The notes beneath the pieces are model-generated. The model was not told where the DNA came from. It did not search any database and saw nothing but the letters and a program-made list of their open reading frames with translations. Below are positions 46,811 through 58,434 of a stretch of 64,000 nt of DNA, piece by piece. Origin of the DNA: Aliidiomarina sedimenti (lineage in GTDB: Bacteria > Pseudomonadota > Gammaproteobacteria > Enterobacterales > Alteromonadaceae). Numbering within the stretch: the stretch's first letter is position 1; every line of letters begins with the position of its first letter. The stretch is taken from the NCBI RefSeq assembly GCF_003986955.1, contig NZ_PIPN01000006.1, forward strand, positions 1-64,000, in the 5' to 3' direction. The position numbers were made by a program, and so were the translations under genes.

Positions 46811-48184
46811 ATGACCTTGCTTAATCATCTGGATGATAAGCTGCTCTATGTATCTCAGTCCGCTACTATCGACAGTGGCGATCTTGATGCTGCCGGCGAG
46901 TTACTGCTGAGCAGCCTGGCTGACGGGCTGCAAATCGAGAGGGTGAGCATTTGGTTTTTTAACCGCAAGGGCACTGCTCTCACCGTCAAACTGGCACTCC
47001 ACCACGGTCAGTTTAGCCAGAAAGGAGCCTTTGAGATCACTCGCCAGGCGTTCCCCCGCTACTTTGCCGCGTTACACAGTGAACGCGCTATTATTGCTGA
47101 CGATGCCCACCATCACCCGGCCACTCTGGAGTTCAGCGACGACTACCTGCAAGCGGAAGGGATAAGTTCAATGCTGGATGCCCCCATTCGTCACCGTGGT
47201 GAAATGGTCGGTATTGTCTGTGCTGAGCACACCGGTGACGGGCGCCAGTGGACCGCCCCCGAAGTGCGCTTTGTTGCCGCTCACGCCGACCTTTACGGGC
47301 GGGCCTTGTCTGCCTGCGAGCGCAACCTTTACGAGCGTCAGCTTATTCAACAGAATGCTGCCCTTGAACAGCAGGTGCAGGAACGCACCGCCAAGTTGCT
47401 GGAAGCGGAAAAAATGGCGGCACTGGGTAAACTGGTTGCGGGTGTGGCCCATGAGGTCAACACCCCTCTTGGCGTAGCGGTCACTGCTATTAGTCACTGT
47501 GAAGAAATGCGCGGTCGGCTGCAGCGGTCGTTCGATGACAAAGCACTCACCCACACCCAGCTCAATGACTACCTTAGCGAAACAGCCCAGGCATACGGCT
47601 TGCTAAGCAACAATTTGCGCCGGGCCAGTACCTTAGTGCAGAATTTTAAACGTACCGCAGTGGACCAGTCGCATTTTGAACTTTCGACCTTCTTACTTGG
47701 GCCCTATCTGCATACCATTGTGGCCAGTCTGCGCCCGTTATTAAAACGTTATGCACCTCAGGTGGTCATTGACTGCCCGAGTGATTTAGAAGTGACGACC
47801 TACCCTGGTGCGCTGGCGCAAATTTTCACCAACCTGATTACCAACACCTGTGAGCATGCGTTTGCAGAATCCGGCCAGCTTCGCTCACCGCGCATCGATA
47901 TCCACTGTGAGCATGATGAACAGGTGCTTTACTGCATTTACCGGGATAATGGGAAAGGCATGTCCGGCAGTAACTTAGAACACGCCTTTGAGCCGTTTTT
48001 TACGACCAACCGCACCGGGGGTGGGTCTGGGCTCGGTCTGTCGATTGTGTTCAATCTGGTCCATCAGCAATTAGGAGGTGAACTGGCGTTAAGCAGCCAG
48101 CCCGGCCAGGGGCTCACCGTTAGCATGCAGTTGCCGCTCAATTACCGGCGCGTCGCCGGTGAAAAAGCATCACATTCAGCATGA
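46811..48184 (+). CDS. GAF-domain sensor histidine kinase
   Basis: A GAF domain (about 20-170) is followed by a short coiled coil, a HisKA domain with H-box VAHEVNTPLG and a HATPase_c domain with DNGKGM and GGGSGLGLSIVFNL. No transmembrane segment, so it is cytoplasmic. No response regulator is adjacent; the nearest receiver proteins are in the convergent operon downstream. The HEVNTPLG box is a variant of HEINNPL. Confidence 0.87.
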   Translation: MTLLNHLDDKLLYVSQSATIDSGDLDAAGELLLSSLADGLQIERVSIWFFNRKGTALTVKLALHHGQFSQKGAFEITRQAFPRYFAALHSERAIIADDAHHHPATLEFSDDYLQAEGISSMLDAPIRHRGEMVGIVCAEHTGDGRQWTAPEVRFVAAHADLYGRALSACERNLYERQLIQQNAALEQQVQERTAKLLEAEKMAALGKLVAGVAHEVNTPLGVAVTAISHCEEMRGRLQRSFDDKALTHTQLNDYLSETAQAYGLLSNNLRRASTLVQNFKRTAVDQSHFELSTFLLGPYLHTIVASLRPLLKRYAPQVVIDCPSDLEVTTYPGALAQIFTNLITNTCEHAFAESGQLRSPRIDIHCEHDEQVLYCIYRDNGKGMSGSNLEHAFEPFFTTNRTGGGSGLGLSIVFNLVHQQLGGELALSSQPGQGLTVSMQLPLNYRRVAGEKASHSA

Positions 48185-48185
48185 G

Positions 48186-49262
48186 TTAGTTCTCGGGCGC
48201 ACCCGTTTCTGTGTCTGCGTGCATGTCTACATCAGTGTTTACATCAACGCCTGCCATTCGATTAATCATCTTTAGTACTGCTTCAATTTGCAGGCCATCC
48301 AGGGTGGCGTAATCAGCACCGGTGTAACCCCACCAGTCCCAGCAACCTTGTGGATTCATTGGCTCCGTCGTAGACGGACGCACCTGCGGGTAAAGAATAA
48401 CCAGACGGTTGCTGTCTGCCCATCGGTTGAGCCCTGACTCACGGGCAAAACGGTCGCCCACCGCGGCGCTATGCTGGTTGCAGCCATGGAAGCTAATATG
48501 CAGGCTGCACGCTTGCCCTTGCGCGCATTCCTCCGGGACGTACAAATAGCCTTCATCGGCCAGGCTGTCAGCAAAACGCCCGCCAGCCATTTGCTGGTCA
48601 AAGGTCACCAGTGCACGCTCGCCGGAACCCGGTTCATGTAAGTAGCCATATAAGGCTGCCAGTAACTCGCCAGCCGCATCGTAGTTGCAGTTACCAAGGT
48701 ACGGGGATTCGCTGCCCGCACAATCGCCGCCACTGGTTAGCGTCGGCCACAAATGGCCGGTTTCAGCACGGGTTATCTGCTCGATATTCGCTGGCTCGAC
48801 AAACTGCTGGTAGATGTCATGGGCGCGGTTGAAGATAGCATCGCCGACCGTGTTATCGCGCTCTCCGCGAAATAGCCAGACCTGATCCTGGCGTAAGTTT
48901 TCCAGTGGCTGGATCGTACGTTGCTCCGCACGCTGCCGAATAAGGGCCAGCAGTTGTTCGCTGTCCGGCGGGTTAGTCCCATTCCCCATACACTGACTTA
49001 ACGCAGTCGCCAGACTGCCCTGAGCACAGTCATAGGGACCGCCCGCTACTAGTGCGGCGCCGCGCACCCGTTCGCTATGAGCAAAATGAAACTGCTGCGC
49101 CATATAGGCACCGGAGGACAAGCCGGAAACGGTTACCCGCAACGGGTCGATATTCAGCCGCGGCAAGCCTGATTCATCAACTTCAGAAGGCTCGTCCTGC
49201 CCGCTGCAGCCACTCAACACGACGCCACATAACAGCGCCACCAGGATAGATTTTTTCATCAT
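48186..49262 (-). CDS. Lipoprotein PHA-depolymerase-type esterase
   Basis: Alpha/beta hydrolase resembling extracellular short-chain-length polyhydroxyalkanoate depolymerases. A lipoprotein signal ends in LSGC (Cys19). The lipase box GLSSG places the nucleophile at Ser49, unusually near the N-terminus as in the type-2 catalytic domain; HISFHGCNQH and GCWDWWGYTG are also typical. No linker or substrate-binding domain is present, and lipidation predicts membrane anchoring, so the real substrate may be another ester. Its start overlaps the end of the LOV-GGDEF-EAL gene by 4 bases. Confidence 0.84.
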   Translation of the reverse strand: MMKKSILVALLCGVVLSGCSGQDEPSEVDESGLPRLNIDPLRVTVSGLSSGAYMAQQFHFAHSERVRGAALVAGGPYDCAQGSLATALSQCMGNGTNPPDSEQLLALIRQRAEQRTIQPLENLRQDQVWLFRGERDNTVGDAIFNRAHDIYQQFVEPANIEQITRAETGHLWPTLTSGGDCAGSESPYLGNCNYDAAGELLAALYGYLHEPGSGERALVTFDQQMAGGRFADSLADEGYLYVPEECAQGQACSLHISFHGCNQHSAAVGDRFARESGLNRWADSNRLVILYPQVRPSTTEPMNPQGCWDWWGYTGADYATLDGLQIEAVLKMINRMAGVDVNTDVDMHADTETGAPEN

Positions 49263-51355
49263 GGCACCTCAGCCAAACGTACCGCTTTGCGCACGACGTC
49301 GCGTAATTCTTTGTCGTCCCACGGCTTGGTTAAGAACTTATAGATTTGTCCCTGATTAATCGCCGCCGTCACCGACTCCAGATCCATATAGCCAGACAAC
49401 ACAATGCGCACAATACCCGGGTACATTGACTTAACATGGTTAAGCAGTTCGGTGCCATTCATATGGCGCATCCGCTGATCAGAAATTATCACCTGCACCT
49501 GGTGCTGAGCCAGTAATTCAAATGCCTCATCAGCGGTTTCCGCCGTCAGTACGTGATACCCGTCACGGCGTAGCAGGCGGTTCAGTGAACGCAGCACATT
49601 TGGTTCATCATCAACCAGCAACAGGGTCGGCCGTATTTCATCGTCTTCCGGCTCTGTCAGCCCCTCATGCAATGCGAGAAACTGGGCGACGTCGTCCAGG
49701 GGCATCGGTCGAGCGCGGTAGTAACCCTGCATCTCATCGCACAACGCGCGACGTAAAAAGCTGTACTGCGCCTTGGTCTCGATGCCTTCAGCAACCACCT
49801 TCATATTAAGGTGATGCGCCATCGACACAATACCCTGAATGATCGCCGCGTCGCCTTTATTGTGCGCAAGGTCAGCAATAAAACTGCGGTCAATTTTAAG
49901 GGTGTCTATGGGCAGCCGTTTAAGGTAGTTCAGGCTTGAAAAGCCAGTGCCAAAATCATCCAATGACAGATGCACACCGAGCTCTTTCAGCGCCAGCATC
50001 TTGCGCACCGTCGTTTCGGGGTCTTTTAGCAGCACTGACTCGGTCACTTCAATATCAAGGTACTGTGCATCCAACTGACATTCGGTCAGCAGTTCAGCCA
50101 GGCGCTCGACAAAGTGTTCACGAAGAAAATGCAATGGGGAGATATTGACCGACACACTGGGCAGATCGGGGTCTGCTAAAACCAGCCGTTTAAAGTCCTC
50201 GGCCGCCCGGCGAATGACCCATTCGCTTAAGGATACGATTAAACCGGTCTTTTCTGCTACCGGAATAAATTCGTTGGGAGATACCTCCCCCAGCACCGGG
50301 TGAGTCCAGCGCGCCAGCGCTTCCACACCGGTACACTGGCCGCTGCGTAAATCAAACTTCGGCTGGTAGACCAGGCTAAACTGGTCAGTTTCGATCGCCT
50401 TCGAAAGTTGATTGCGAATATTAATAAACTGCGCCACTGAGGCGTTAAGGTCACCGCTGTACCACTGGAAGTTATTACGCCCACGTTGTTTCGCCTGGTA
50501 CATCGCCAAATCTGCCTGCTGGATCAGGACCATTGGGTCTTCCACCTCGTCGGAGCTCAGGGTCACCCCGATAGACGCCGACAGCTGCACGTCCATGCCG
50601 CTGACGTTCATCGGTTCGGCTACCTGCGCCAGAATACGTTCGAGTATAATCACGACATCGGTGGCGTTCGCCAGGTCGGAGAGCACTATCGCAAACTCAT
50701 CGCCTTCAACCCGTGCCAGGGTGTCCCCGGGTCGAATCAACGCTTGCAGCCGTTTCGCTACTTTCTGCAATAAACGGTCGCCGAAATGATGGCCAAAGTG
50801 GTCGTTGATCGGCTTGAAGCCATCCAGATCCAGGTACACCACCGCCAGTTCCCGTTTATAACGCTGACTCAGGCGTACGCTTTGCTCCAGACGTTCTTCC
50901 AGTAGCGCCCGGTTAGGCAGGCCAGTTAAAGGGTCATGGCTGGTATAATGATCCAGCTCTGCGCTTAAGTTCGCCTCGCGGGTCGCATCGCGAGACACCC
51001 CCATATAAAATACCAGCGCATCGTTCGCATCCAGCAAAGGCACCAGGGTTAATTCATTCCAGAACGCCTCGCCGTCTTTGCGGTAATTACGTAAAACCGC
51101 CTGCACCGACTGCCCGTTTTGCAAGGCTCGTCGAACCCGGGTGACCTCCTCGGTCGCAGTATCCGGCCCCTGCAGAAAACGGCAGTTTCTGCCCCGGACC
51201 TCGTCGCTGGTGTAACCGGTTAACGCCTCAAAAGCGGGATTGGTATAGACAATGGGCATGTCCGCTACCTTTGCGTCGGCGATAATGACACTCACCGGCA
51301 TGGCGTCAAGCGCGCCTACCATACTGGCGATCGGCAACTGCGGACGTTGCGTCAT
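49259..51355 (-). CDS. LOV-GGDEF-EAL-REC c-di-GMP protein
   Basis: Domain order: LOV/PAS (about 15-128), GGDEF (135-300), EAL (312-560), receiver (575-690). The LOV domain has the photoadduct motif GRNCRFLQG (Cys58), so it probably binds flavin and senses blue light. The flavin-facing Gln that normally ends the domain (GVQxD) is Ser121 (GVSRD). The GGDEF motif is EGDEF (217-221). The EAL domain keeps EALARW, the Asp pair in LDDFGTGFSS, KIDRSF and AEGIET, so phosphodiesterase activity is likely. The C-terminal receiver has its Asp (IISDQRM). It overlaps the genes on both sides by 4 bases. Confidence 0.9.
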   Translation of the reverse strand: MTQRPQLPIASMVGALDAMPVSVIIADAKVADMPIVYTNPAFEALTGYTSDEVRGRNCRFLQGPDTATEEVTRVRRALQNGQSVQAVLRNYRKDGEAFWNELTLVPLLDANDALVFYMGVSRDATREANLSAELDHYTSHDPLTGLPNRALLEERLEQSVRLSQRYKRELAVVYLDLDGFKPINDHFGHHFGDRLLQKVAKRLQALIRPGDTLARVEGDEFAIVLSDLANATDVVIILERILAQVAEPMNVSGMDVQLSASIGVTLSSDEVEDPMVLIQQADLAMYQAKQRGRNNFQWYSGDLNASVAQFINIRNQLSKAIETDQFSLVYQPKFDLRSGQCTGVEALARWTHPVLGEVSPNEFIPVAEKTGLIVSLSEWVIRRAAEDFKRLVLADPDLPSVSVNISPLHFLREHFVERLAELLTECQLDAQYLDIEVTESVLLKDPETTVRKMLALKELGVHLSLDDFGTGFSSLNYLKRLPIDTLKIDRSFIADLAHNKGDAAIIQGIVSMAHHLNMKVVAEGIETKAQYSFLRRALCDEMQGYYRARPMPLDDVAQFLALHEGLTEPEDDEIRPTLLLVDDEPNVLRSLNRLLRRDGYHVLTAETADEAFELLAQHQVQVIISDQRMRHMNGTELLNHVKSMYPGIVRIVLSGYMDLESVTAAINQGQIYKFLTKPWDDKELRDVVRKAVRLAEVP

Positions 51356-52725
51356 GAGTCCTGGCTACCGCTCGTCTCAGCGGATTCAGAGGCTTCATCG
51401 TCCGGCGTCACATGCTCATCACTGGAGACATCGATATGCACCTGATAATGTTCACGCCGGGTACGCTCAAACACCATCAGCTTTTCAATCATGCCCGGTG
51501 TCAGTATGCTGCCAGCATTGAGCAATAAAAACCCACTGTCGGTCAGCAAGTTGCTCTTCACCAACATGCCTGCTTTTAATTGGTTCAGACGACAGGAAAT
51601 AACACCATCCGGCAACGGTTCCAGATCCGGCGCTTTATCATGCACCAGCGCAATAAAACGCGCTGTCATATCCGGGTCATAAACACGGTCAGCAAAAATT
51701 CCCAGGTTCTCCAGTGCATCATCCCGGTTCATCAGCCGATCCAGGATCATGCCCCGTTGCAGCTCAATAAAATCTACTGCAAGCTTTAATAAACGTGACT
51801 CTTCAGGGATGTTGCGTCCTTCCAGCTGTCCCGGGAAGCCGCGGCCGTCCCAGCGCTCCTGATGATGCCGGATAATAATAGCGGCCCGCTGCAATGGCTC
51901 CAGCGACATCAATAAGCTTTCTCCCAGTTCCGGATAGGTCCGGAATTTGTCCCGGTCACGGCCCCGAAAGGTATCACTGGGCGTCATCAGGTGTTCGTCA
52001 CTCCAGGTAACCTTCCCCAGATTATATAAGGCCGCCGCCATGGTCATATCGTTGATCCGGACGGCATCCCAACCAGCCTCTTCAGCATAGGCTTTAACCA
52101 GAGCGCTGACCTTACCATTGGTCTGGCGAGACTTCGGCAACCGCTGGTTAATCAATGCAGCGAAGACCTCAGTCGAATTCATATAACTCTTTTCCAGCTT
52201 TTTATACGCTTTGTCGCGTAACTGGATGGCTTTACGCAGCGCATTGGTGCGTTTAGTAACGCTCAGTTCCAGCTGCTGGTTAAGGTCACGTAGCTTGCGG
52301 TTACGTGCCTGGATCAACTTGGTCAACCGGCTCCGTTCGCGCTCCGCGTAGGCCAGACGGGCAGCCTGGCGCAGCACGCCGCGTACTTCGTTATCATCCC
52401 ACGGCTTCTGAATAAAGCTATAGAGATGCCCCTGATTGATACTTTTGATCAGGCTTTCCATTTCCGGATAGCCCGTCAGCAGAATGCGGATACAGTGCGG
52501 CCAGCGCTTCTGCACCAGGGAGAGCAATTCGCTGCCATCCATTTCCGGCATTTTCGAATCGGACACCAGAATATCAATTTCTTCAGATTCCATCAGCGCC
52601 AGCGCGTCTTTGCCACTGCCGGCCGTACGGATCTGCATGCTTTCGTTGCGAAGCAGACGCTGCAGCGAACTCAACACATTGCTTTCATCATCTACTAATA
52701 AGACTCGAATCGTCGTTGTCGCCAT
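51352..52725 (-). CDS. REC protein with degenerate HD-GYP domain
   Basis: A receiver domain with Asp56 (LVSDSKMP), a coiled coil (about 125-185) and an HD-GYP-like domain (about 195-350). The domain keeps RHHQERWDGRGFP, but the metal-binding His-Asp pair is Tyr234-Asn235 (ALYNLGK) and GYP is GFP, so phosphodiesterase activity is doubtful. A C-terminal domain of about 100 residues follows. I choose ATG 52725 (457 aa) with AGGAAAG upstream; the longer frame lies inside the kinase gene. It is coupled to the LOV protein (ATGA). Confidence 0.85.
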   Translation of the reverse strand: MATTTIRVLLVDDESNVLSSLQRLLRNESMQIRTAGSGKDALALMESEEIDILVSDSKMPEMDGSELLSLVQKRWPHCIRILLTGYPEMESLIKSINQGHLYSFIQKPWDDNEVRGVLRQAARLAYAERERSRLTKLIQARNRKLRDLNQQLELSVTKRTNALRKAIQLRDKAYKKLEKSYMNSTEVFAALINQRLPKSRQTNGKVSALVKAYAEEAGWDAVRINDMTMAAALYNLGKVTWSDEHLMTPSDTFRGRDRDKFRTYPELGESLLMSLEPLQRAAIIIRHHQERWDGRGFPGQLEGRNIPEESRLLKLAVDFIELQRGMILDRLMNRDDALENLGIFADRVYDPDMTARFIALVHDKAPDLEPLPDGVISCRLNQLKAGMLVKSNLLTDSGFLLLNAGSILTPGMIEKLMVFERTRREHYQVHIDVSSDEHVTPDDEASESAETSGSQDS

Positions 52726-52753
52726 GGTCTTTCCTGTTCCTTTCGTTTTCGGA

Positions 52754-54013
52754 TTAAGCCTCGGTTGGGGCTTGTTGAATGCCAGCAACCGGTAATACCA
52801 CGGTAAAACAAGTTCCCTGCCCTACTTCGCTGTCGACCCGAAGGGTTCCACCATGCTTTTTGACAATGTTATAGGTCAGAGCGAGACCCAGCCCGGTGCC
52901 TTCACCAACTGGTTTCGAGGTGTAAAAGGGCTCAAAAATGCGCGGCATTTGCTCATCACTAATACCGCTGCCATCATCGCGGATAGAGATTTCTACCGTA
53001 TCACCTGCGACTGCTGTCTCCACATAAATATTGCCGAATTTTTCAATCGCCTGAGCTGCATTAACTAACAGGTTCATAAACACCTGATTAATTTGCCCCA
53101 GGTTGCAACATACATCAGGTATATCGGCTAACGCAGTATGAACTTCAGCTTTATACTTAAGCTCATTCCACGCCACGCTGATGGTGGTTTCAACGGCTTT
53201 ATTAATATTCGCCGGCTGCATTTCACAGTCGTCCTGGCGCGAAAAGTCCTTGAGCGCGGTAATAATATGCTTTACCCGTTCAATGCCTTCTTCCGACTCT
53301 CGCAACAGCGCGCTGACATCGGTGCGAATAAAGTCGTAATCAAGGGTCTTTTTCAACCGCTTCAGTTCGTCTACAGAGTCAACATGGTCAATCGCCTCGA
53401 TAATCTGGCGCAGGTCAGCGACGTATTCAGCCATGGTTTGCAGGTTCGAATAGACATAGCCAATCGGATTATTAATCTCATGGGCCACCCCTGCTGCCAG
53501 CTGCCCAATAGCCGCCATTTTCTCGGTCTGCACAAAGGTGCTGTTAACGTCTTCTAGTTTACGGATCAGTTCAGCCTGCTGTGATTGCCGGGCCAGTAAC
53601 GACGCTTGCTCACGGGTCAGCGCCTGGGCCGACTCGCGAACCTCATTGCGCTGCGCAATCAGGCTGCGTTCCATATTAATCCGGGTTTCATAAGGCGTGA
53701 GGGTCAAGTGAATAACATCAGACTGTTGTTTAGCACTCAGCAGCAATGAAACCTGCTCGCCGCTTTGCTGCTGCAATCGCATGCTGTATTGTTCGGCGGG
53801 CTTTCCGCTATCCAGTGCAGGCTGCACCATATTGTGCCATGCCAGCCAGTTGGCTTTATTCATCAGGGTGCTGAATGACGCCCCGATAAGTTCGTCGTTG
53901 CGATACCCAAGCAGCGTCAGACACGCCTCATTGACCGCTACAATAGAGTTGCTGCTATCAATCACCAGATAAGGTGCTGGTACCTGTTCGACCCAGTTAA
54001 ACTCAGCATCCAT
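52754..54013 (-). CDS. PAS-domain sensor histidine kinase
   Basis: Soluble kinase of 419 aa: PAS (about 5-115), a coiled linker (125-170), an NtrB/HydH-like HisKA with GVAHEINNPIGYVYSN and HATPase_c with DDGSGIS and GTGLGLALTYNIV. No membrane segment. It lies between a transporter and two receiver-domain proteins in an overlapping operon, which makes those two its likely phosphorylation partners. Its start overlaps the MFS stop by one base. Confidence 0.9.
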   Translation of the reverse strand: MDAEFNWVEQVPAPYLVIDSSNSIVAVNEACLTLLGYRNDELIGASFSTLMNKANWLAWHNMVQPALDSGKPAEQYSMRLQQQSGEQVSLLLSAKQQSDVIHLTLTPYETRINMERSLIAQRNEVRESAQALTREQASLLARQSQQAELIRKLEDVNSTFVQTEKMAAIGQLAAGVAHEINNPIGYVYSNLQTMAEYVADLRQIIEAIDHVDSVDELKRLKKTLDYDFIRTDVSALLRESEEGIERVKHIITALKDFSRQDDCEMQPANINKAVETTISVAWNELKYKAEVHTALADIPDVCCNLGQINQVFMNLLVNAAQAIEKFGNIYVETAVAGDTVEISIRDDGSGISDEQMPRIFEPFYTSKPVGEGTGLGLALTYNIVKKHGGTLRVDSEVGQGTCFTVVLPVAGIQQAPTEA

Positions 54014-55311
54014 TAGTGTGCATCCTCTTGCTCTGCCTGTCGTTGCCCTTCCTGCAAAGGAACCCGAAGCAACAGGACGCCGCCAGCGAGAAAGAAACCA
54101 ATCACCATCAGCAATGCTGACTGGCGGCTGAAGATATCAGCTACAATACCGAAACTTGCCGCCATTAACATCGCAAGCCGGTTAAACACGCCCCACCAGC
54201 CAAACGCACTGCCACCTAAGCGGGCTGAGGTTAACTGCCCCACCAGCGAGCGGCTGGAGGACTGAATCGCTCCAATTCCGGTGCCCGCCAATAAGGCCAC
54301 GCCCATAAAGAGGTGGGCCACATCGATACCGGACCAGGCGACCAGCGTCGGCAACATATACATTGCCACAATGGCCACCAGCCAGATTGCAATCACCGCA
54401 AAAAGCGTAGGCCGGGCCCCTATTCTGTGTTCGACAAAACCAAACGCCAGCGCACCGCCCATCGCACTAAACTGAGTCGCCAGGAACACGCCGACCAGGT
54501 CCGCCTGGGTCAGACCCAGTTCACCAGTACTGTAGATACCAATAAACTTAATGACCGTTTGCACCCCGGCCATATAAAACACAAATGCCATAAAGAAGCG
54601 CCATAAAATAGGCTGGTTTTGGCGCAACAACTGAATATTCAGGCTCGATCGCCAACTCAGCCGCTGGTGCCTGGCCAGTACCGGCCGGCGACGGTCTTTA
54701 AGCAAAATAAAGGTAGGCAATGCAAAGAGGACAAAATAAACCGAAATCGCAAACATCGACCACTGGTTCTGACTAATATACAGCTCAGGTTGCTGCTCAG
54801 GGTTGGCCGTAACCAACACAATGGTCACCAAAACCATGCTGATTAAGCCACCAATGTAGCCCACACCCCAGCCGATCCCGGAAATCAGTCCCATTTGACT
54901 GCGCTTAGCAATATCAGGCAAAAACGAGGAAATAATGGCCTCGCCCAGCATCCAAGCGGTGTTGGTGACCAATATCAGCGCAACCCCTAACCAGACATCG
55001 CCAGGTGAAACCCAGATCAGGGCAGACGTGAAGGCAGCACAGACCAGGGTCGACCAGGCCAGCAGTCGTTTCTTGCTCGCCCCTTCGTCGATACGCTGAC
55101 CGATCCAGGGTGACAGCAACATAGCCAGGATGGTCGATCCAATCAGCGCCATCGACCAGTAGCCATCCTGCCAGCGGTAGCTGTCCGGAACGATGTAAGT
55201 GACGAAAAACGCAGAGTAAATGAACGAAATTACAACCGTGGTGTAGGCTTGATTGGCAACGTCATACATCGCCCAAGCAAAAATCTCACGTTTCGGTGCC
55301 AGCGTTGCCAT
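54013..55311 (-). CDS. MFS transporter, UMF1 (Atg22-like) family
   Basis: Twelve-helix permease. The N-terminal signature FAWAMYDVANQAYTTVV matches the UMF1/Atg22-like family, and the loop SSFLPDIAKRSQMGLISGIG is shared. Substrate unknown. Length is 432 aa. It sits 20 bases after the RsbQ-like hydrolase gene, with GGAGC before the ATG. It could import the hydrolase ligand or export a product; this is inference. Confidence 0.87.
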   Translation of the reverse strand: MATLAPKREIFAWAMYDVANQAYTTVVISFIYSAFFVTYIVPDSYRWQDGYWSMALIGSTILAMLLSPWIGQRIDEGASKKRLLAWSTLVCAAFTSALIWVSPGDVWLGVALILVTNTAWMLGEAIISSFLPDIAKRSQMGLISGIGWGVGYIGGLISMVLVTIVLVTANPEQQPELYISQNQWSMFAISVYFVLFALPTFILLKDRRRPVLARHQRLSWRSSLNIQLLRQNQPILWRFFMAFVFYMAGVQTVIKFIGIYSTGELGLTQADLVGVFLATQFSAMGGALAFGFVEHRIGARPTLFAVIAIWLVAIVAMYMLPTLVAWSGIDVAHLFMGVALLAGTGIGAIQSSSRSLVGQLTSARLGGSAFGWWGVFNRLAMLMAASFGIVADIFSRQSALLMVIGFFLAGGVLLLRVPLQEGQRQAEQEDAH

Positions 55312-55331
55312 AGGGCTCCTGTGAACTCAGA

Positions 55332-56162
55332 TTATGGGCGAGGTAGTGCCGCGTTTAAGATTTTCCGCAGCAACGTGACCACCTCCGCCGGATGACTTAA
55401 CTGGGGATAATGCCCTTGCGCGTCCAGGGTGTAAAGCTCGCATTTCTGCATGGTGCCGACGAGGTAATCACTCACTGCGGGTGGCACAATCGCATCATCC
55501 GCCGCCTGCATTACACTCACCGGGCAGGCAAGTTCAGCGTATTCAGCACGATAGTCCGAGTACAGAATGGCACGGGCAAAGTTGAGCATAATATCGGGCC
55601 GCGCCTGCTGAAAACTGCGTACCAGGCGCTCGGCCAGCTCTGGTCGCTGCTCATTCTTCATCGCCGTGGCCGCCATTACATTGGCCCACTGAAAATAGTT
55701 TTCTTCCATCAGTTCCAGCAACGCATCAATGTCGCTGCGCTCAAAGCCCCCCTGATACGCGCCGTCATTTATATAACGGGGAGAAGGACTTACCATCAGT
55801 AAATGGCGGAAGGTTCCCGGTGCCGCCTGTTCAGCGAGAACGCCGATACTGCCACTTGCCGAGTGAGAAAGCAGGTAGGGCTGGTCCAGGTTCAGGCATT
55901 CAACCACATCAAGCAGGTCATCCGCGTAACCACGCAGTGTTTTATACTTCGCCTCGTTATACTGACTCAGATCAGACTCACCAGCACCGACGTAATCAAA
56001 CAACACAAGACGGTAGTCCGCCGACAGCAGGGGCACCACTTTGTGCCAGATCCGCTGGTCACAGCCAAGCCCATGAGCAAGCACAATGGTCTGCGAGCCG
56101 GTTCCTAGTACAACCACATTATTGCGCCGCATAATGTTGCGTGAGCCACCTGTCACTGACAA
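55332..56162 (-). CDS. RsbQ/KAI2-type alpha/beta hydrolase
   Basis: Strongly resembles Bacillus RsbQ and the plant strigolactone/karrikin receptors D14 and KAI2: FGxGCDQRIW-type region (GLGCDQRIWHKVVP), LFDYVGAGESDL, MVSPSPRYIND and ADDAIVPP. The triad is Ser101 (SHSAS), Asp223 and His251 (GHYPQLSHP). RsbQ works with a PAS protein (RsbP), and here PAS, LOV and kinase genes follow in the same operon. It opens with TTG, 5 bases after a perfect AAGGAGG. Probable role: making or sensing a small ligand. Confidence 0.88.
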   Translation of the reverse strand: MSVTGGSRNIMRRNNVVVLGTGSQTIVLAHGLGCDQRIWHKVVPLLSADYRLVLFDYVGAGESDLSQYNEAKYKTLRGYADDLLDVVECLNLDQPYLLSHSASGSIGVLAEQAAPGTFRHLLMVSPSPRYINDGAYQGGFERSDIDALLELMEENYFQWANVMAATAMKNEQRPELAERLVRSFQQARPDIMLNFARAILYSDYRAEYAELACPVSVMQAADDAIVPPAVSDYLVGTMQKCELYTLDAQGHYPQLSHPAEVVTLLRKILNAALPRP

Positions 56163-56226: not shown

Positions 56227-57579
56227 CTAAGCGGAGAGTTCAACTTCGACAATGCGATTGTGGTTAATGACAATTCGCCAGCGCTGAATAACCACACTGC
56301 CGTCACCTTCAACGTCGCGCGCAACCAGGTTAAGAACATAGCGTTTCTCCACCTGGTCCTCGATAATCTCTTGATTATCCAGGCGAAATACAATGTGGGT
56401 ACTCGGATTCATGACCCGCATAATGAGGTCGAGATCCAGAATAATGCTTTCCCGTGTCTGCGCATAACCACTGAGAAATCGGGTTGGCAGCATTTTTGAG
56501 TCATTGCGGTAGTGCAGAATCGACTCACCACGCTGCGGGGTATTGCCCTGGCGCGCGATGCGAATATCCTCCGGTAAATCGTCAAAACTCTGGTAGTCGA
56601 TCCATTCCAGTGAACGTCCAATGGTCTGCTCGGAATTGACATCAAGATAGGTATGGCGCCATTTCGGTCGCCCTTTGCGCAACCACAGCCATAGTTTCTG
56701 GCGGATATCATCACGGAAAAATTCGCGCACCCCATACAAAAATGCGGCGATAACCAAAAACATCGCGGTGATATCTCCCACCAACAAACGGCTTTCCAGC
56801 AGCAGAAATGAAACAAAGGTCATCACCACCGCCGCCACCGCAGCTTTCAGCCAGCGCTGCTCGCCGACACCTAGCTCCTGGGTACGGCGTTTAAAGGTAA
56901 CCGGATACTCTATCAGGCGGCGCAGCAGACGCATCTTATTCGACATCCGGGTGGAGTCATCATTGACCGCTTTGCTGTTGTATTCCTGCTCTTCACGGTG
57001 CTTATGTTCGCGCCGTGCGACTTTGATCAGCAAGTCTTTTAAATCCTGCTGATCGTCGGCAAAAGGCATCCGTGCAGCGAGCAACAGAAACTGCTGTTCG
57101 GTCTGCCACGACAGGTAGTTATCGATGTTTACATGGTAGCGTGAGAGCGACTCGTCTTTTGGCACATTGCGCCGCAAGCGGCGTAAAATAGTAGCGCTCA
57201 GTTCGAGCAACTCACCTATTTCATCCCGCTTCACCTCGCTGTTGGCCAGCAATGCCCGCGCCGCACTTTCCAGCGCATTGGTATACTGGTACGCATAAAG
57301 GCTGACACTGAGACGGTATTTGGGGTCGGCGCGGTCCTGCTGACCACGGCTGCGGCTAATTAGCCGGCTTTGCACCAAAGGCGAGAGCTGCGCGCTACTG
57401 GAATAGGTACGGCGCACATAAATACCCTGCAGGTAAAATTCCTGCTCAGGAATCAGCTGCGAATCAACGTTTAATTCACCCGGAATAAACAGGTACAGAT
57501 CGAGCCGGTGTTCAGCCTTGTCACCCAGCTCGCGGGTCAGTCTTACACTCTGTTCGTCGTAACGTGCGAGGTGAATCAC
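56227..57579 (-). CDS. Conserved membrane protein of unknown function
   Basis: I do not recognise a family. The 450-aa protein has a soluble N-terminal half (about 1-235) with a charged helical stretch near 190 (VARREHKHREEQEY). Two adjacent transmembrane helices follow (about 245-285, AAVAAVVMTFVSFLLL and ITAMFLVIAAFLYGV). The cytoplasmic-type C-terminal domain is rich in beta strand. It lies 17 bases after a small membrane-protein gene and 64 bases before the RsbQ-like gene, all on one strand. Confidence 0.72.
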   Translation of the reverse strand: MIHLARYDEQSVRLTRELGDKAEHRLDLYLFIPGELNVDSQLIPEQEFYLQGIYVRRTYSSSAQLSPLVQSRLISRSRGQQDRADPKYRLSVSLYAYQYTNALESAARALLANSEVKRDEIGELLELSATILRRLRRNVPKDESLSRYHVNIDNYLSWQTEQQFLLLAARMPFADDQQDLKDLLIKVARREHKHREEQEYNSKAVNDDSTRMSNKMRLLRRLIEYPVTFKRRTQELGVGEQRWLKAAVAAVVMTFVSFLLLESRLLVGDITAMFLVIAAFLYGVREFFRDDIRQKLWLWLRKGRPKWRHTYLDVNSEQTIGRSLEWIDYQSFDDLPEDIRIARQGNTPQRGESILHYRNDSKMLPTRFLSGYAQTRESIILDLDLIMRVMNPSTHIVFRLDNQEIIEDQVEKRYVLNLVARDVEGDGSVVIQRWRIVINHNRIVEVELSA

Positions 57580-57596: not shown

Positions 57597-58325
57597 TTAG
57601 TGGTTAGATGAATCGGACGTGCTGTCCTTGTCATGTGCGTGTAAAAAGTTCTCAACTGACTGACCTGTCAGCTTTTTCATTTGGTAAAACAAATAAAATA
57701 TAGCAGCAAACATAACCAGCATGGTGGGTAACGCAATGACCGGGAAACTCAGCGCGGTCATCCGCCCAAGTTCCTCGTTAAAGGCAGTGGTGCCAGCCGG
57801 GCTTACTACAATCCAGCGCGCCAGAATATAATTGAGAGTCGCTGAAAGAAAAAACGCGCCCGCGACCAGGTAGGTTGACACACGCAGCACCCGTTCAAAT
57901 GCAGGTCGGTTACCCCGTTCATCGACAGCCTGTTCAAAACGCGCCACATTGATTACCTGGTCATTCATCAGTAACTTTTTAATCAATGGGAAACGGGTAA
58001 AGTGACTGACCAACACCGCCACCCCGATTACGCCCGGCACCGCCGCTTCTTTAATCGCGATATATTGTGGATCAAGCTCCAGTAGGCTGATCCCGCCGGT
58101 TAAAATAACACTGACCACACCGAGCACCGAAAAACCATTCACTTTGTGGCTGCGCTTCAGGTCATACAAGCCATAGCCAATCGGAAACGCCAGTGCCACC
58201 ACCACACCCAGTGCCGGCCCCAGATACTCGGGTGAACTGAGCTTCATCAGGATAATGACTGGAATGAGAATATTAAACAGCAGGTTAGAAAAGAAGCCAG
58301 CCTGCCTGGGCTGAGTCTGTGTCAT
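57597..58325 (-). CDS. VC0807-family integral membrane protein
   Basis: About six hydrophobic segments over 242 aa, with the LMKLSSPEYLGPALGVVVAL and PIGYGLYDLKRS pattern of the VC0807 / intracellular septation protein A-like group. Function unknown. ATG 58325 is taken as the start; a TTG two codons upstream has a slightly better-placed AGG. The C-terminus is hydrophilic (Asp, Ser, His rich). Confidence 0.72.
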   Translation of the reverse strand: MTQTQPRQAGFFSNLLFNILIPVIILMKLSSPEYLGPALGVVVALAFPIGYGLYDLKRSHKVNGFSVLGVVSVILTGGISLLELDPQYIAIKEAAVPGVIGVAVLVSHFTRFPLIKKLLMNDQVINVARFEQAVDERGNRPAFERVLRVSTYLVAGAFFLSATLNYILARWIVVSPAGTTAFNEELGRMTALSFPVIALPTMLVMFAAIFYLFYQMKKLTGQSVENFLHAHDKDSTSDSSNH

Positions 58326-58404
58326 GAACAAATAGGCCTGTGGTTAGGTCGTCGGTTAGGTCCGCATAGTAGCTCCCAGTATATGCCTACAGCCCTCAAT
58401 AAAA

Positions 58405-58434
58405 AAGGCCTGCCGTCATATAACGGCAGGCCTT
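58405..58434 (-). terminator. Terminator of the four-helix-bundle MCP gene
   Basis: A 12-bp perfect stem (58405-58416 with 58423-58434), 6-base loop, then six T residues on the minus strand, 25 bases after the MCP stop. Confidence 0.9.

Follow-up and report, generated by a model that had tools for sequence, protein, structure and literature searches.

An RsbQ-type hydrolase gene encoded with a predicted c-di-GMP phosphorelay and a LOV protein in Aliidiomarina sedimenti

The stretch of DNA analysed here (the window) comprises the first 64,000 nucleotides of contig NZ_PIPN01000006.1 of the marine bacterium Aliidiomarina sedimenti, from a genome of 2.85 Mb in 10 contigs. Six open reading frames (ORFs) on the minus strand were confirmed at positions 48186-56162 by means of the ORF list and its translations. 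Together they are predicted to encode an RsbQ-type hydrolase, a transporter, an esterase and the parts of a phosphorelay which may act on cyclic di-GMP (c-di-GMP). From upstream to downstream the genes are:

55332-56162, minus strand: RsbQ-type alpha/beta hydrolase; TTG start, with an alternative ATG at 56132
54013-55311, minus strand: ATG22/UMF1-type transporter of the major facilitator superfamily (family scan), lying between the RsbQ and kinase genes
52754-54013, minus strand: cytoplasmic PAS histidine kinase (PAS-HisKA-HATPase) with an N-terminal PAS domain of the class that accompanies RsbQ (Q-PAS) and an HEINN phospho-acceptor motif
51352-52788, minus strand: receiver (REC) domain with a degenerate HD-GYP domain (HD_5; NosR family), hereafter REC-HD; likely start ATG at 52725
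49259-51355, minus strand: LOV-GGDEF(EGDEF)-EAL-REC protein, hereafter the LOV protein (family scan and PDB sequence search)
48186-49262, minus strand: predicted lipoprotein, type-2 extracellular short-chain polyhydroxyalkanoate (PHA) depolymerase, hereafter the esterase (family scan; lipobox by eye)

The tight spacing and several overlaps described for these genes in the initial annotation were recovered, the junctions ranging from a 35-base overlap to a 28-base gap. RsbQ and UMF1 are separated by 20 bases, UMF1 and the kinase gene overlap by 1 base, and the LOV protein gene overlaps both REC-HD and the esterase gene by 4 bases; the kinase and REC-HD genes overlap by 35 bases if the TTG start of the latter is used, or leave a gap of 28 bases with the likelier ATG. 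The locus of Aliidiomarina soli was found to be near-identical, with gene order and proteins kept and 94-100% identity by domain. The ratio of nonsynonymous to synonymous substitution rates (dN/dS) against A. soli was 0.006-0.08 across the six genes (RsbQ 0.038, UMF1 0.006), indicating strong purifying selection, and since order and proteins are conserved at such ratios the six-gene set is not considered a chance arrangement. Among the domains measured, the ratio was highest in the LOV (0.149) and PAS (0.112) domains and lowest in the GGDEF (0.015) and REC (0.013) domains of the LOV protein.

The hydrolase had been described as RsbQ-like, which was borne out by a best PDB match to Bacillus subtilis RsbQ (238 bits) and by the alignment of Ser101, Asp223 and His251 (positions by eye) with its catalytic triad. 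Fold and triad are homologous to those of the plant KAI2/D14 receptors, but chains of KAI2/D14 type scored at most 195 bits (KAI2-type 187-195), and placement within that group was therefore rejected. The butenolide-type ligand mentioned in the same annotation was unsupported here. It has been reported that RsbQ occurs in RsbQ-PAS pairs (45 in number) with PPM, kinase or GGDEF output, and the same 2011 study called the physiological cue of RsbQ mysterious (PMC3183031).

RsbQ genes (E <= 1e-40) were detected in 19 of 394 genomes of the order, 3 of 369 of the class and 20 of 398 of the phylum, these samples overlapping and each including the window genome. Outside the RsbQ type of the window, 42 loci were compared (20 other places in the order, those of genomes G004 and G015, two in the class and 18 of the 19 new places in the phylum, G985:C5 being left out). 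A Q-PAS domain adjoins RsbQ in 39 of the 42, the exceptions being L247, L265 and L266. The output encoded downstream, assigned in some cases with Pfam, was GGDEF in 19, a kinase in two and neither in one of the first 22 loci, and a kinase in 13, GGDEF in three and neither found in four of the other 20. One 582-aa ORF (L094:6178-7926, minus strand) fuses RsbQ, Q-PAS and GGDEF, and this natural fusion supports direct contact between RsbQ and the PAS domain.

The Q-PAS profile was built from 20 partner PAS domains of the first 22 loci, and a second profile from 17 rows. Among loci outside profile building, Q-PAS stood beside RsbQ in both of those in the order and in 17 of 20 in the class and phylum. 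The PAS domain of the window kinase matched the whole length of the profile at 63.9 bits and its homologue in an Idiomarina metagenome-assembled genome (MAG; G013) at 56.4 bits. Across the 17 genomes of the genus set, six matches exceeded 27.4 bits, each in an RsbQ-bearing genome, with the next match at 27.4 bits (second profile). Three of the six are PAS-GGDEF proteins adjoining their own RsbQ (G004, G009 and G015), which as rows of the profile provide no test of it; the remaining three, the window kinase and its counterparts in A. soli and G013, were not among its rows. RsbQ is present in seven of the 17 genomes, six of which have a Q-PAS domain, and no strong Q-PAS match was found in a genome lacking RsbQ. 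On this profile evidence the window kinase PAS is assigned to the Q-PAS class. The LOV domain was also considered as the PAS partner of RsbQ and was rejected, as it reached only 1.7 bits. A second RsbQ type occurs in the genus (G009 and G004; ~40% identical), at L074 and L075 (about 3.8-10.4 kb), where it is encoded with a PAS-GGDEF protein between GGDEF-EAL proteins, one of which bears a LOV-like PAS domain.

The REC-HD protein scored 472.9 bits against the NCBIfam NosR family (cut-off 400). Its catalytic HD is replaced by YN while the later HHQERWDGRGFP stretch is retained, for which reason it is regarded as a degenerate HD-GYP, in agreement with the earlier description. The phospho-site Asp77 is present in its receiver, and both receivers (that of REC-HD and the REC of the LOV protein) keep the usual phosphorylation residues. 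Proteins of this kind are known from two relays of related build. In the Hno relay a haem nitric oxide sensor of the H-NOX type is combined with the kinase HnoK, which feeds HnoB (EAL) and HnoD, a degenerate HD-GYP that restrains HnoB (PMC6335343; PMC8846402), and phosphotransfer has been reported for NosP-NosK-NosR, in which NosR is a degenerate HD-GYP (PMC12570481).

A NosR-family match (E <= 1e-60) was obtained in 36 of the 394 order genomes. With the window's own place and two partial matches left out, 37 of 40 places could be examined with flanks (24 above and 13 below the family cut-off), three stretches being short at contig ends. H-NOX was found in the flanks of 10 of the 37 (6/24 above and 4/13 below the cut-off; nine confirmed by Pfam and the tenth by tblastn) and FIST in one; neither RsbQ nor UMF1 was found at any of them. 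In the two order genomes with both RsbQ and NosR genes (G155 and G230), these lie on separate contigs or at a distance of 1.9 Mb, so a further RsbQ-NosR neighbourhood in the order was rejected. Pairwise comparison of the window kinase core with the kinases at the 10 H-NOX loci gave identities of 33-44%, no tree being involved. A NosP or H-NOX sensor encoded elsewhere in the window genome was also sought, and no FIST or HNOB match was found. Genome searches of A. soli likewise gave no FIST match, while FIST genes occur in four of the 17 genus genomes, including, away from the locus, A. maris (G005:C1), G006:C1 and G013:C32.

An alignment scan of named genomes for REC-HD yielded 305 relatives, from which the best 80 were retained, most of them from Pseudomonas. 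Counts at these 80 loci were made by tblastn, because ORF-picking maps of the GC-rich Pseudomonas loci were noisy. A kinase is encoded just upstream in 26 of the 80 and in none of the other 54, and 13 of the 26 (Aliidiomarina 1, Pseudomonas 10, Castellaniella 2) also have EAL and REC downstream. RsbQ lies near three of the best 80 loci, all Aliidiomarina or the Idiomarina MAG. The survey of RsbQ beside the relay proposed in the initial annotation thus yielded the neighbourhood in that group and in none of the 37 NosR loci of the order. In a group of Pseudomonas loci that includes L099 and L105 (about 6.7-15.7 kb) the order is kinase, REC.HD, a 180-aa REC protein and a protein of ~1900 aa, without RsbQ; the large protein ends in LOV-like PAS-GGDEF-EAL-REC, and the relay is related to that of the window.

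In the LOV protein the GRNCRFLQ flavin-binding motif and the photoactive Cys are kept, and in the PDB search the domain matched a LOV protein of solved structure at 118.6 bits. The active-site Gln column holds Ser; this does not exclude a photoreceptor, since the Gln is reported to be generally dispensable for LOV signalling (PMC9098866). The GGDEF motif reads EGDEF, and the RxxD I-site and EAL motifs are present by eye. LOV Cys, GGDEF and EAL are shared with blue-light phosphodiesterases such as SL2 (PMC8846402), from which the window protein differs by its additional C-terminal REC, the Gln to Ser change and the EGDEF motif. As the signalling Gln is lacking and GGDEF reads EGDEF, degradation of c-di-GMP by the EAL domain is predicted to be the surer output.

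The transcription unit probably begins two genes before RsbQ (58331-56227), since a strong terminator-like hairpin sits between the preceding methyl-accepting chemotaxis protein (MCP) gene and the VC0807-family gene. The upstream features are:

56227-57579, minus strand: P0008, a protein with no family assigned; found in synteny at the front of the locus wherever the locus occurs (five genomes)
57597-58331, minus strand: VC0807-family protein (family scan), likely the first gene of the unit
58405-58434, minus strand: terminator-like hairpin of 13 pairs with a T tail, ending the upstream MCP gene and marking the limit of the unit

The scan for such hairpins found 27 sites in 13.7 kb against 14.4 expected, and a scan of the locus for consensus promoters was uninformative (9 found against 10.6 expected). 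On the other side of the locus a GAF histidine kinase gene (46811-48184, plus strand), also kept in A. soli, converges on the esterase gene, the 3' ends of the two lying one base apart.

The locus is present in some form in five of the 17 genus genomes, all of which have UMF1 and the VC0807-P0008 front. In G013, where it is spread over two contigs, it matches up to the contig ends; RsbQ is divided by one such end and the LOV protein is cut off. In G006 RsbQ is absent, while UMF1, the kinase core, REC-HD, the LOV protein and the esterase are kept; an RsbQ elsewhere in that genome was rejected (best match only 4e-7), and the RsbQ slot holds a different protein, by eye an M28-type peptidase. The kinase PAS of G006 has a nine-residue gap in the RsbQ-contact helix in both alignments and reaches 20.4 bits against the Q-PAS profile, over its first part only. 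In the G006 LOV protein the Cys is changed to Met and the GGDEF motif to ESDEF. The reverse loss is seen in A. maris, which keeps RsbQ, UMF1 and REC-HD; its genome gave no match to the kinase, and the LOV protein is missing from its locus. Identity to the window is 52-53% for A. maris RsbQ (UMF1 80-81%, P0008 78%), compared with 73-75% for G013 RsbQ (UMF1 79-80%, P0008 80%). At columns conserved in the 42 outgroup RsbQs, A. maris has 17 unique changes and the window four, and A. maris RsbQ is farther than window RsbQ from all 42 outgroups. With neighbouring genes as the only yardsticks, these two events, in which either partner changes once the other is lost, suggest that RsbQ is functionally tied to the kinase; together with the Q-PAS match they favour the connection between the two proposed earlier. 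In G007 a PAS-less kinase gene comes after an ORF whose start lies within an EAL domain and which has a REC domain at its end (L073:6015-7895, plus strand); this may be a disrupted or reduced version of a related relay.

UMF1 was classed as an ATG22/UMF1-type transporter, and the esterase scored 377 bits against the type-2 PHA depolymerase model (cut-off 280), its PDB match being a polyhydroxybutyrate depolymerase. Among the best 80 REC-HD loci, UMF1 occurs only in three Aliidiomarina/Idiomarina loci and the PHA depolymerase only in A. soli. A link with UMF1 or the depolymerase beyond Aliidiomarina was rejected, UMF1 being found at none of the 37 NosR and none of the 42 RsbQ loci; for the depolymerase these two sets were covered through locus maps, with no search by name.

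The locus resembles several described systems. With the RsbQ-PAS module (B. subtilis RsbQP; PMC3183031) it shares the aligned triad, the class of the N-terminal PAS and a kinase output, one of the three known; it differs in having UMF1 between the genes, Ala and Met at the positions of RsbP F55 and Y59, and a kinase which would feed a two-receiver c-di-GMP branch. In common with the Shewanella Hno relay (PMC6335343; PMC8846402) are a cytoplasmic kinase, a REC-degenerate-HD-GYP, a REC-EAL and a separate sensor protein, whereas the window genome has no H-NOX match, RsbQ stands in the sensor place and the EAL protein adds LOV and GGDEF. The NosR model cut-off is passed and the HEINN motif of the kinase is common to NosP-NosK-NosR (PMC12570481), from which the locus differs by the lack of a FIST/NosP match in the genome and by a second receiver with EAL. 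It is filed as a member of neither the RsbQ-PAS module nor the Hno/Nos relays, because it lacks a haem sensor, the RsbQ and PAS genes are not direct neighbours and the contact residues are changed. The initial annotation knew of no pathway with exactly this gene set, and among the open-access papers listed none describing it was found, as judged from titles and abstract openings; both halves (RsbQ with Q-PAS, and a kinase with two receivers) are known separately.

On the basis of homology and gene order, the locus is interpreted, with a probability of about 0.6, as a branched c-di-GMP phosphorelay working like the Hno/Nos relays with its input from RsbQ. RsbQ would bind or hydrolyse a small molecule and so change the state of the Q-PAS kinase, which, judged from homology and co-encoding, would phosphorylate both REC-HD and the REC of the LOV protein. 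REC-HD, in which the catalytic HD is lacking, probably acts like HnoD and holds its partner in check through contact; phosphate would favour hydrolysis of c-di-GMP by the EAL domain, and the LOV domain would add blue-light control of the same enzyme. Relays of this type are known with haem sensors, and as neither FIST nor HNOB was matched in the window genome, RsbQ is the simplest candidate for the sensor place. It may either have taken over from a haem sensor or have joined a kinase that had none. The earlier interpretation as a whole is thus partly supported, the observation on which it was based being confirmed.

Several findings weigh against an RsbQ-driven relay. At 63.9 bits the window PAS is low for its class (52-196 bits in 39 others), and it has Ala and Met where RsbP F55 and Y59 map, the columns being set by spacing from a conserved Pro as the RsbP sequence is absent from the alignment. 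Neither residue occurs at its column in any of the 39 other Q-PAS domains, in which the F55 column holds F (26), Y (8), V (2), L (2) or M (1) and the Y59 column H (20), Y (14), Q (2), F (1), I (1) or K (1), and a F55A change in RsbP-PAS is reported to abolish RsbQ binding (PMC3183031). The G013 PAS has the identical Ala and Met, so the pair is taken as a kept lineage state, reflecting either a rewired or a weakened RsbQ contact. RsbQ and the PAS kinase gene are not directly adjacent in the window, being separated by UMF1, which lies within 4.5 kb downstream of RsbQ in none of the 42 other loci; the full gene set is present in few genomes, and A. maris retains RsbQ and UMF1 though its kinase is gone. 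On the side of the sensor, H-NOX and FIST were both missing from 26 of the 37 NosR loci, and a nitric oxide (NO) sensor (NosP) might act from afar in G005, G006 and G013.

Some of these points would also suit an RsbQ that is uncoupled from the kinase and forms an uptake and hydrolysis pair with UMF1, the kinase answering a PAS ligand of its own and the co-location being inherited. Such an arrangement would account for the changed PAS contact positions and for RsbQ adjoining UMF1 in all four genomes with this RsbQ type, including the kinase-less A. maris. It is nevertheless rather doubtful, given that the kinase PAS remains of the class otherwise found beside RsbQ, that RsbQ evolves faster after kinase loss and the PAS loses its contact helix after RsbQ loss, and that UMF1 persists in G006 without RsbQ. 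That the genes act separately and are adjacent by chance in one lineage would agree with the absence of both this RsbQ type and the REC-HD gene from 12 of the 17 genus genomes and with RsbQ standing beside none of the NosR loci of the order; the overlapping genes, the strong purifying selection and the recurrence of the order kinase, REC.HD, EAL-REC in 12 Pseudomonas/Castellaniella loci among the best 80 make this very improbable.

A more detailed version of the RsbQ-fed relay includes the two remaining genes. Here the haem sensor of an NO-type relay would have been swapped for RsbQ with a rewired PAS contact, the PHA depolymerase would free hydroxyacyl esters which UMF1 imports and RsbQ binds or cleaves, and the relay together with blue light would lower c-di-GMP. 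As a whole this chain of steps is a long shot, although, if true, it would name a natural ligand class for a bacterial RsbQ.

The significance of the locus lies in the link, through gene order and reciprocal decay, between RsbQ, the bacterial relative of plant KAI2/D14 receptors, and a relay that can be rebuilt in vitro from its parts (kinase, two receivers and EAL), so that a ligand screen with phosphotransfer or phosphodiesterase read-out becomes possible. It further suggests that relays of the Hno/Nos type can accept a non-haem sensor, and that a single enzyme may add up a chemical cue, phosphate and light.

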